Source: Candidatus Zymogenaceae bacterium
GTDB lineage: Bacteria; Desulfobacterota; Zymogenia; Zymogenales; Zymogenaceae
DNA: 64,000 nucleotides
Assembly (NCBI GenBank): GCA_016931225.1
Contig: JAFGFE010000014.1
Location: 62,001 to 126,000, forward strand
Direction of reading: 5' to 3'
Part shown: in pieces, positions 8,693 through 12,832 of the stretch
Layout: each line of letters opens with the position of its first letter
Numbering within the stretch: the stretch's first letter is position 1
The notes under the pieces: model-generated
Databases searched by the model: none
What the model saw: the letters and a program-made list of their open reading frames with translations, nothing else
Told to the model about the DNA's origin: nothing
Position numbers and translations under genes: made by a program

Positions 8693-10372
8693 TTACACCT
8701 CTTCTGCGGCCTCTTCCTGCTGGAGCCATACTTCGTTAAACAGCATGTAGAGCGTCGGGTGGGCCTGGACATCCATAACCTGGGTGCCCGTCACAAACCA
8801 GACGTTTCTCCAGAAGCTGATGCCGACTGATCCCCGCTCCCATTGGATGCGCTCGAGCTCACAGAAAATCTTACGGCGCCTATCGACATCGAGGGTGCCG
8901 TTGGCTTCTGTGAGCAGTTCGGAGAATTCCTCGTCGCTCCATCGGGTCTCGTTCCAGGGGACGGGATTCCCCTCGTCGTCGACGGTGTAGGCAAGGTTCA
9001 GCACCATGGTGCCCAGGGGACGATGTGTCCAGGACGTGATGCCCAGGTCCACTTCCGTCCACTTCTCCCAGTACTGGCTGTTGGGCATGGTGACGATGTT
9101 TACGTTGAAGCCCGCAGGGGCGGCGTCTTCCTTGAGGATTTCCGCATAACGGACCATGGCCGGCCAGCCGTTGCCCACTGCCAGGTTGATTTCAAGACCG
9201 TCTGAATATCCCGCCTCTTCCAGGAGCGCCTTGGCCTTTTCGGGATCGTATTCCGGGATCGGCTTATCGCAGTATTCGGGGTGATAGGGATAGACGTGAA
9301 AGTCCTGTCCCAGAAGACCCTGATCGAAATATGCCAGTTTGAGGATTTTTTCCCTGTTCTGGCAGAGCTTCAGGGCCATGCGGACATTATTGTCGGTCCA
9401 TGGATCCATGTCGACCCGCATCCTGAGCACCGCAACCTGGGCGGTGGAGGCGGGGATGATCTTGGCCCGCTCGTCGTCCTTGAGGGTCTCGTAGACGTCG
9501 GGGCGGGGGGAGTCGGAGAAGTCGATCATGTCGATCTCTCCGGACTGGAGCGCCGCCACCTGTGGGGACATCTCGGTGCCCATGTCGATGAACTCCATGC
9601 CGTCCATGTAGGGGAGCGACTCTCCGTCCGCGCCCGCCTGCCAGTAGTCTGTCCTTCGAACTAGACGGCACAGCTCGCCTTCGCTGTACGTCTCGATGGT
9701 GTAGGGACCGGTGCCGTGGGGCGCCTTGATGAAGTCGCCCTCGAAGGTGCGGTGGTTCAGCACCAGAGCCGGGTAGTGGAACAGATGCTCCGGCACGCCG
9801 ATCTCGGGCTGATCCAAGTGGAGGATCACCTGGTAGTCGCCCACCTTCTCAATGCCGGTGGGTGAGAGATAGGCCCCCACCATACCGAGGAGGGACGACC
9901 CCACGTCCTTGTTCAGCCACTCGTTCATGGTGAAGACCACGTCGTCGGCGTTGAACTCGTCTCCGTTGTTGAATGTGATGCCCTGTCTCAGGTTCAGGGT
10001 CCAGGTAAGCAGGTCTTCGCTGGCCTCCCAGTTTTCCAGGAGATAGGGACGGGTGATGTTTTCGCCGTCGGTCCAGGTCAGGTATTCACCCACCTGGCGC
10101 ATCTGGTTGCTGGGAACGGCCCAAGTGAACTGAGCGGGATGCGTGACCTTGTGCACCGGAGCGGCGACACGAAGGACACCGCCGCGGGTCAGCTCGGACG
10201 GCTTGGTCTTGGGGCCGCCGGTTTCCGGGGCGCAGCCGATCAGGCTCGGAGCCACGGCAGCGGATACGCCCAAGAGCGCCGCGTATCTGACAAATTCCCG
10301 GCGGGAGAGCTTCCCGGCCTTGAACTGGTCGATCAGTTCGTGGATACGAGGATTGAAAGACTTCTTTTCCAT
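8693..10372 (-). CDS. family 5 solute-binding protein, Tat lipoprotein
   Basis: This is the ligand-binding subunit of the importer (SBP_bac_5 fold, 559 residues). The start at 10372 follows AAGAAGGAGGTTAG; the frame can be read further upstream but without such a site. The N-terminus carries a twin-arginine motif (SRREFVRY), a hydrophobic segment and a lipobox ending at Cys47 (SLIGC), so it is probably exported folded and then lipidated. Family hallmarks include the ITFNNGDEFNADDVVF segment and the middle-domain DNNVRMALKLC region. First gene of the four-gene operon. The ligand cannot be read from the sequence: peptides are the default, but plant-derived sugars are also known for this family. 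Confidence 0.93.
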   Translation of the reverse strand: MEKKSFNPRIHELIDQFKAGKLSRREFVRYAALLGVSAAVAPSLIGCAPETGGPKTKPSELTRGGVLRVAAPVHKVTHPAQFTWAVPSNQMRQVGEYLTWTDGENITRPYLLENWEASEDLLTWTLNLRQGITFNNGDEFNADDVVFTMNEWLNKDVGSSLLGMVGAYLSPTGIEKVGDYQVILHLDQPEIGVPEHLFHYPALVLNHRTFEGDFIKAPHGTGPYTIETYSEGELCRLVRRTDYWQAGADGESLPYMDGMEFIDMGTEMSPQVAALQSGEIDMIDFSDSPRPDVYETLKDDERAKIIPASTAQVAVLRMRVDMDPWTDNNVRMALKLCQNREKILKLAYFDQGLLGQDFHVYPYHPEYCDKPIPEYDPEKAKALLEEAGYSDGLEINLAVGNGWPAMVRYAEILKEDAAPAGFNVNIVTMPNSQYWEKWTEVDLGITSWTHRPLGTMVLNLAYTVDDEGNPVPWNETRWSDEEFSELLTEANGTLDVDRRRKIFCELERIQWERGSVGISFWRNVWFVTGTQVMDVQAHPTLYMLFNEVWLQQEEAAEEV

Positions 10373-10898
10373 GAAACTAACCTCCTTCTTAAAATTGACT
10401 AATGTGAATAAACATAGTAATACATGATACACACAATAACAAAAAACACGACGCGATGTTATTTGTGGGCAAATAGGATTCAGGTTTTGCGCAGTTTTTT
10501 GTAGGATCGATTATGCCACGAACCTACGTAACTCCGACGATTCGGTGTATGTGTGTGTGATGATGAGCAAGGGGGATTTGTATGTGAAAAGCGTTTCTTT
10601 GAAAAAAACAAAACGGACAAGGATACTCAAAGAGTCTTGGGTAGGGAATATCTCCCACGGGTATCGGTGAATATCCGAGTGCTTAACCTCCTTTTCTGCT
10701 TGGTTTTTTAAAAACGCAGGAAGAGCCGCAGGATCGGGCTCCGTGTCTTCGCCCGATGTTCAGACACCGTAACTTCTCATACGTATCACACCTCGGGTCG
10801 GATGTCAACGACTTAAAAAAATTGCCCTCGTATTCGCAGAAAAAGTAATGAAAAACGGACGGAGAGCTGCTTTTTGACCGTTTTGGTGCGGGTATTTC
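10373..10898. other. non-coding region upstream of the ABC operon, partly structured
   Basis: No credible gene is present. From about 10600 to 10810 the minus strand has several self-complementary stretches, for example ATCGGGC at 10733-10739 against GCCCGAT at 10751-10757. A TTGACA hexamer on the minus strand occupies 10808-10803, but only a poor -10 follows at 17-bp spacing. The stretch could hold the operon's long leader or a minus-strand RNA. I could not match it to a known RNA family. Confidence 0.3.
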
Positions 10899-10926
10899 TT
10901 GACAGTGGATTATTATATGTTAGAAT
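10899..10926 (+). promoter_or_regulatory. consensus sigma70-type promoter in the intergenic region
   Basis: TTGACA at 10899-10904 and TAGAAT at 10921-10926 are separated by 16 bases. Transcription should begin near 10933. No start codon follows at the right distance from the nearby AAAGGAG, so the product is probably an untranslated RNA or a leader. Confidence 0.65.
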
Positions 10927-10932
10927 TATAAC

Positions 10933-11020
10933 AATAAAGGAGCAAAACAGCGGTTTTTGACCAACGCTCGTATTGTTTTGTGCCTTGTCCGCGTGAAACG
11001 AGTGTTTCACGTGTTTTTTT
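10933..11020 (+). ncRNA. candidate small RNA, about 90 nt
   Basis: The stretch begins just after a near-consensus promoter and ends in a strong intrinsic terminator. In between, CAAAACA at 10943-10949 can pair with the later TGTTTTG, enclosing a second AGCG/CGCT stem, so the RNA would fold almost completely. An AAAGGAG sequence at the 5' end is exposed but has no start codon 5-10 bases downstream. It lies about 410 bases before the aminotransferase gene on the same strand, so it could instead be an attenuated leader. The family is not recognised. Confidence 0.45.
10992..11020 (+). terminator. intrinsic terminator of the candidate small RNA
   Basis: CGTGAAAC at 10992-10999 pairs perfectly with GTTTCACG at 11004-11011 around a GAGT loop, and TGTTTTTTT follows directly. 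Confidence 0.75.
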
Positions 11021-11434
11021 ATATGGAAGCGTCTCTTCACGCGACGACGCGGTTTTTCATGAGTTCTGAAGAACCATATCCTCCCGCCGCGCCTTGCCGC
11101 TTTGCTGGTCTTACACGGCGGCACTTGATTCCGGCGCGGATTCTCCCCGATACAGCCAGTGTTCATCGCACACTTCCGTCAAAAATAATGACGGTCCACG
11201 GCATCGGTGCGCCGTTCACACCGGAAACGTCCGAAAATAAGGGATATATGTATATACATGAAGAGTCGCGTGTTGCGGTATATCGCGAAACGAAGAGAAG
11301 TTTTGTTTTATATAGAGAGAGGCGGAATGGGGAGCCGATACAACTATGATGCGGGGCGTATGGATGGCGACCCTCGTGCCTTGTGGCAATGACGATGAGG
11401 AGGGAAACGGGTATTTCCTGAACTTTCAAAAGGG
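11021..11434. other. non-coding region before the aminotransferase gene
   Basis: I see no convincing gene. There is an AT-rich stretch near 11225-11320 with a TGTATATACA palindrome that may hold the aminotransferase promoter, but no clear -35/-10 pair. Confidence 0.3.
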
Positions 11435-12832
11435 ATGACGAACACGATGAAAGATATACTTATCGAACATTTTGTGGACAACATCCATATGCCCGACAAC
11501 ATTCGTGTCGGCTTGATGGTTGCAGAGCATCGAAAAAAGCTGGCGAACGGCACGGCCACGGAGGATTTTGATTATGCAGGATACGCGTTCGGCCAGTCCC
11601 CGTTTCACGTGCCCGAGCCCATTATTCGCGCCTTCCAGGAAAATGTACATCGGGGTAATTATTCGGATCCCCAGGGGATCATCGAGCTTCGAGAGGCCAT
11701 CGCCGGATTCAACAAACGCCATTTCAATCTCGACATAAATCCGAAAAGGATTTTCGTCGGTCCCGGCACGAAGGAGCTGATTCACTTCATTTTCCACATT
11801 ATCAAGGGGGGCATCATCATTCCGTCTCCCGCATGGATCGGGTACTATCCCCTTGTGCGGATGGACAAAAAGCGATTTTACTCCTACCACCTCAAACCCT
11901 GGTTCGACTACAAGATCAACGCCGGGGTGTTGGAGGAATACCTCAACACCATTCAGGACGGCCAGTACATCCTGGTGCTGAACAACCCCCACAATCCCAC
12001 GGGCACCGTCTATACCAGGCAGGAGCTGGAGGATATCGCCGACGTGTGCCGTCGTAACCATACCTTTATCCTGTGCGATGAGATATACGCGAAAATCACC
12101 TTTGAACAGGAAAAGTTTGTCAGCATACGGGAGATCTATCCCGAGGGGTCGTTCGTCACCAACGGCATCTCCAAGGATCGATCCGCCGGCGGGTATCGCC
12201 TGGGGTATGTGATTTTACCCAACAACTCCACAGAAGAGTTGATAGCCGACTTCAGAAAGGTCGCCGCCACCGTCTACACCAACGTCTCGACGCCCACCCA
12301 GTACGCGGGGATTGCGGCCTATGAGGAGAATCAGGAGATTGATGAGTACATGGTGACCATTCGAGAGATTCATCGGATCATGGGTCGGGTCATCAGCCGG
12401 CGATTCAACGAGATAGAGGGTATCTCCGCCACGATACCGGACGGCTCGTTCTATTTTCTGGCGGATTTCAACAAGCTGAAGCCGCGGTTGAAGGACGTGG
12501 GCATTTGCACCTCAAACGACCTCGCCCGGGTGCTGCTGGAGCACCCCTACCGTGTGGCCCTGGTTACGGGGGACTCTATCCGTGTCAGGTCCGATGATTT
12601 CGCCGCCCGCATCGCGTTCGTGGATTACGACGGCAGGGAGGTTTTCAACGTATATCGAAAAAAACCGCCCGTTACTCAGAAGGAGGAGGAGACGTTTGTC
12701 GCCAAAAACGCCCCGCGAATGCTCGTAGGCATAGAGTCTCTCAAGCGGTTTGTGGATGACATCACGCGGGACGCAAAGAGGGTCAGACGACACAAGGAGA
12801 AGGGGATCCTGGGACGGGCCGTGGCCCCATAA
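11435..12832 (+). CDS. class I/II pyridoxal-phosphate aminotransferase
   Basis: This fold-type I enzyme (465 residues) should transfer an amino group between an amino acid and a 2-oxo acid in the cytosol. Visible landmarks are YSDPQGIIELREAIA, the substrate-loop NNPHNPTGTVY, the CDEIYAKI segment with the aspartate that holds the pyridine ring, and the cofactor lysine at about residue 247 in GISKDRSAGGYRLGY. A late RVRSDD segment provides the substrate carboxylate arginine. The C-terminus is about 60 residues longer than in the usual aspartate aminotransferases. AAAAGGG precedes the ATG, and a second ATG four codons in is also possible. It is a single-gene unit with a terminator behind it. Substrate unknown. 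Confidence 0.9.
   Translation: MTNTMKDILIEHFVDNIHMPDNIRVGLMVAEHRKKLANGTATEDFDYAGYAFGQSPFHVPEPIIRAFQENVHRGNYSDPQGIIELREAIAGFNKRHFNLDINPKRIFVGPGTKELIHFIFHIIKGGIIIPSPAWIGYYPLVRMDKKRFYSYHLKPWFDYKINAGVLEEYLNTIQDGQYILVLNNPHNPTGTVYTRQELEDIADVCRRNHTFILCDEIYAKITFEQEKFVSIREIYPEGSFVTNGISKDRSAGGYRLGYVILPNNSTEELIADFRKVAATVYTNVSTPTQYAGIAAYEENQEIDEYMVTIREIHRIMGRVISRRFNEIEGISATIPDGSFYFLADFNKLKPRLKDVGICTSNDLARVLLEHPYRVALVTGDSIRVRSDDFAARIAFVDYDGREVFNVYRKKPPVTQKEEETFVAKNAPRMLVGIESLKRFVDDITRDAKRVRRHKEKGILGRAVAP

Follow-up and report, generated by a model that had tools for sequence, protein, structure and literature searches.

Locus and transcription signals

The window (the whole stretch of DNA that was analysed, 64 kb in length) contains an intergenic region between two divergent genes that harbors a promoter, a predicted folded RNA, and an intrinsic terminator (Table 1). 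The codon usage of the two flanking genes is clearly that of coding sequence. As both of them point away from the intergenic region, the terminator ends neither gene.

Table 1. Coordinates of the genes, signals, and predicted RNA elements at the locus (window positions)
Feature	Position	Strand	Remarks
Substrate-binding lipoprotein gene, oligopeptide/nickel-type ABC transporter	8693..10372	-	transcribed away from the unit
Intergenic region	between 8693..10372 and 11435..12832		~1.06 kb; without credible ORF
Sigma-70 type promoter	10899..10926	+	TTGACA-16-TAGAAT, extended -10 (TGT before TAGAAT); sequence match
Predicted small RNA	10933..11020	+	about 84-88 nt; anatomy only
Body hairpin	10937..10986	+	AAGG-A-GCAAAACA with UGUUUUGU-G-CCUU; predicted
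Intrinsic terminator	10990..11020	+	10-bp stem, GAGU loop, seven T
PLP-dependent aminotransferase gene	11435..12832	+	transcribed away from the unit; 415 nt past the terminator

The promoter is built from a -35 element at 10899-10904 and a -10 element at 10921-10926 that are separated by a spacer of 16 nt. By sequence match alone, 11 of the 12 consensus positions agree, and a TG lies ahead of the -10 element. The start of the predicted RNA is placed 7 nt past the -10 element and its end within the T run. In the terminator, the arms 10990-10999 and 11004-11013 form ten pairs around a loop of 4 nt, and the seven T follow at 11014-11020. An earlier sequence-only reading of this DNA had described a TTGACA-16-TAGAAT promoter and a perfect 8-bp hairpin with a T7 run. 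Both descriptions are confirmed, the first by the 11/12 match to the sigma-70 consensus with its extended -10 element, the second with a core that is extended by two further pairs, one of them G-U.

The promoter and the terminator are ~85 nt apart. Under stricter criteria, a script detected six strong terminators and five promoters matching at 11 or more of 12 positions across the 64-kb window; they combine into a unit at one place, 10899-11020. When a unit was defined as a promoter of at least 11/12 plus a strong terminator, none appeared in 60 first-order shuffles of locally matched composition. The arrangement is more than chance, because it is the sole such unit in the window and absent from all 60 shuffles; its uniqueness refers to the 64-kb window. 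A scan for intergenic promoter and terminator pairs across 463 kb of the genome, which left out the unit at 10899-11020 by counting the spurious ORF 10957-11349 as coding, lists about three weaker units. On the minus strand, a further small intergenic promoter/terminator pair at 27683-27610 consists of TTGACT-17-TATCAT, closely followed by TGCATGATGATGGTTCATGCA and eight T.

Fold and coding potential of the predicted RNA

The predicted fold of the RNA (10933 to about 11016) consists of the body hairpin and the terminator hairpin. The body hairpin comprises 12 bp between 10937-10949 and 10974-10986 with one A.G mismatch, and its apical part includes a small GCG/CGC stem. The whole transcript folds with a z of -3.05, for which the terminator supplies most of the signal. 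For the body on its own, the z is -1.54, and 20 of 200 shuffles fold equally well. The suggestion that some 90 bases fold on themselves thus stands for the transcript as a whole but not for the body alone, which is not significantly above its shuffles.

The 5′ part of the RNA carries an AAAGGAG motif that the sequence-only reading had regarded as exposed and potentially in contact with other mRNAs. In the predicted fold, the motif is mostly paired with GUGCCUU inside the 12-bp stem and is sequestered by the body hairpin (unpaired probabilities per base of 0.91, 0.19, 0.07, 0.00, 0.01, 0.99, and 0.09). The exposure is thus not borne out, and the proposed contacts with mRNAs are unsupported, as the motif is predicted to pair within the RNA. 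It is very unlikely that this pairing marks a new sRNA family confined to the genus. In such a family, AAAGGAG at the 5′ side and a GCCUU further inside the RNA, which resembles an anti-Shine-Dalgarno sequence, would lock each other in one stem. Such a stem would open on partner binding, so that the RNA could present a ribosome-site-like or an anti-ribosome-site sequence. No 16S rRNA was identified in the assembly.

The same motif near the 5′ end is a good Shine-Dalgarno sequence, which would suit a short-peptide gene or a dual-function RNA with AAAGGAG as the ribosome-binding site. Besides the predicted pairing of the motif, several observations make this extremely unlikely. The predicted transcript (10933 to ~11020) contains no ATG, and the nearest start, the TTG at 10957, is 14 nt from AAAGGAG and opens a frame that passes through the terminator. 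This TTG ORF (10957-11349) scores -0.158 per codon, similar to wrong-frame DNA, whereas real genes have a mean of 0.31 and a fifth percentile of -0.03. The codon usage of the ORFs overlapping the unit at 10899-11020 likewise resembles wrong-frame DNA, and none of them, the TTG ORF included, has a Pfam match. The claim that the unit holds no ORF is upheld by the codon score, the Pfam search, and the missing ATG.

Relation to the downstream aminotransferase gene

The unit lies on the same strand as the aminotransferase gene, and no plus-strand promoter of at least 9/12 is found between the terminator and that gene. Both observations fit the main rival explanation, a 5′ leader of the aminotransferase gene in which transcripts from 10899 would mostly end at 11014-11020 and a signal would permit read-through in an attenuator- or riboswitch-like manner. 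Terminator-type attenuators and riboswitch leaders share with the unit the order of a promoter, a folded RNA, and a terminator upstream of a same-strand gene. They differ from it in that 415 nt separate the terminator from the start codon of the aminotransferase, no antiterminator was found, and Rfam returns no riboswitch or leader even at an E value of 10.

The terminator is present in every predicted RNA with a 3′ end from 11013 to about 11037. When the RNA is folded up to the terminator loop, nothing upstream captures the 5′ arm of the terminator, which stays free. The strongest pairing of this arm with upstream sequence reaches -5.9 kcal/mol compared to -12.9 kcal/mol for the terminator, and no antiterminator structure was found in the RNA ending before the 3′ arm. 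Just past the T run, TTCACGCG (11036-11043) forms a perfect second complement of the terminator 5′ arm CGCGTGAA (10990-10997). Once the RNA extends this far, the alternative is more stable than the terminator by ~5 kcal/mol (-41.9 versus -37.1 kcal/mol), and a pairing that is favored once it is transcribed agrees with a leader. The competitor is, however, transcribed only after the T run and therefore arises too late to prevent termination; according to the modeled energies, the pairing could be relevant to read-through transcripts. In a second genome of the same family (G003), the aminotransferase homolog adjoins a glutamate synthase-like gene (named by eye) and is without such a leader. Taken with the long distance and the missing antiterminator, a leader function is doubtful.

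Candidate small RNA gene, its relatives, and its surroundings

The locus is probably an independent, single-copy, lineage-restricted gene for a small noncoding RNA that extends from 10933 to ~11020. The features of an sRNA gene that can be read from the DNA, namely its own promoter, its own intrinsic terminator, and the absence of a translated ORF, are found together. Sigma-70 RNA polymerase would start at about 10933 and stop at the hairpin and T7 run, yielding an RNA of ~85 nt in which a single long body hairpin is followed by the hairpin of the terminator. The self-contained small transcription unit proposed by the sequence-only reading is the best reading of this anatomy, given the divergent flanks and the lack of an antiterminator, but no homolog was found in its support among the genomes searched.

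Hfq is encoded in the genome (PF17209, 88.1 bits, E 1e-24, G000:C35). Hfq-binding sRNAs typically have terminators of seven or more T (PMC5558911), and the run at 11014-11020 contains seven. Trans-acting base pairing with the help of Hfq would be the likeliest mechanism, because the genome encodes Hfq and the tail carries the T7 run. By analogy with similarly built sRNAs from bacteria that possess Hfq, the RNA probably acts in trans. Hfq would hold its U-rich 3′ end, and mRNAs would pair either with the linker or with the large loop at the apex of the body hairpin (about 10952-10975). The candidate resembles Hfq-dependent trans-acting sRNAs such as SgrS and RyhB (PMC5558911) in its own promoter, its short untranslated body, its terminator with at least seven T, and the presence of Hfq in the genome. 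It has no sequence or Rfam relation to them and differs in that most of its body is taken up by one long stem.

The combination of a promoter and a terminator in an intergenic region is also the hallmark of sRNAPredict-type candidates. This signature has performed well in other bacteria: of the Sinorhizobium meliloti intergenic candidates selected mainly by such a predictor, 14 of 18 were detected (PMC2573895). The present unit differs from these candidates as it lacks conservation in relatives, which such predictors usually require in addition.

The available sample of the class consists of four genomes from one family, with no second member of the genus. In the remaining three genomes of this sample, neither BLAST nor a single-sequence covariance model detected a homolog. 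The covariance model likewise detected none in 395 genomes of the phylum, and a search of phages and plasmids returned no relatives of the RNA. Rfam gave no match at the gathering threshold and none overlapping the unit even at an E value of 10. Weak BLAST matches in phylum genomes (E 0.004-0.1) fall mostly on the AT-rich -10 region or on coding sequence (a FabZ-like gene at L003; L005) and are attributed to chance. The 30 exact 15-mer matches in viral contigs are within chance for the size of the collection by a rough estimate, and none could be aligned beyond 25 bases. The conservation that the sequence-only reading had named as a check was thus not found among these three genomes, none of which belongs to the genus, and the RNA appears to be an orphan at present. 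For sRNAs, the absence of detectable relatives at such a distance is normal and does not refute a function.

A target screen of low power by duplex prediction compared the loop and body of the RNA with 382 predicted translation starts, which were taken from a 463-kb part of the genome. Matching targets, for which the sequence-only reading had suggested a search, did not emerge, as the RNA showed no excess over shuffled sRNAs or coding controls. The missing conservation, body-fold signal, and target signal would agree with a decayed or fortuitous unit, in which the promoter and the terminator are remnants of a lost gene or give rise to a functionless transcript. This is unlikely, as both signals are intact, near-consensus, and placed at a spacing that is absent from shuffled sequence. 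The lack of conservation is, moreover, weak evidence because the sample includes no other member of the genus.

As an independent gene, the candidate is of an ordinary and common kind and constitutes a new orphan member of it. If transcribed, it would add one orphan sRNA gene to a class represented by four genomes and would suggest that compact sRNAs with intrinsic terminators occur in this class alongside Hfq. The general picture is unchanged by it.

In a collection of species-representative genomes, the closest relatives of the aminotransferase are encoded on contigs labeled as methanogenic or related archaea (55-57% identity), and one bacterial homolog from the same family is found besides them (54% identity). 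These archaeal relatives suggest a horizontal transfer of the aminotransferase gene. In G003, the homologs of the substrate-binding protein and the aminotransferase are located on separate contigs, and the region upstream of neither contains a match to the RNA. On the minus strand, a TTGACA and an AAAGGAGG precede the gene for the substrate-binding protein by ~320-450 nt, both in the window (10380-10810) and in G003 (L022, 230-690). This region may thus contain a small gene or a long 5′ leader.
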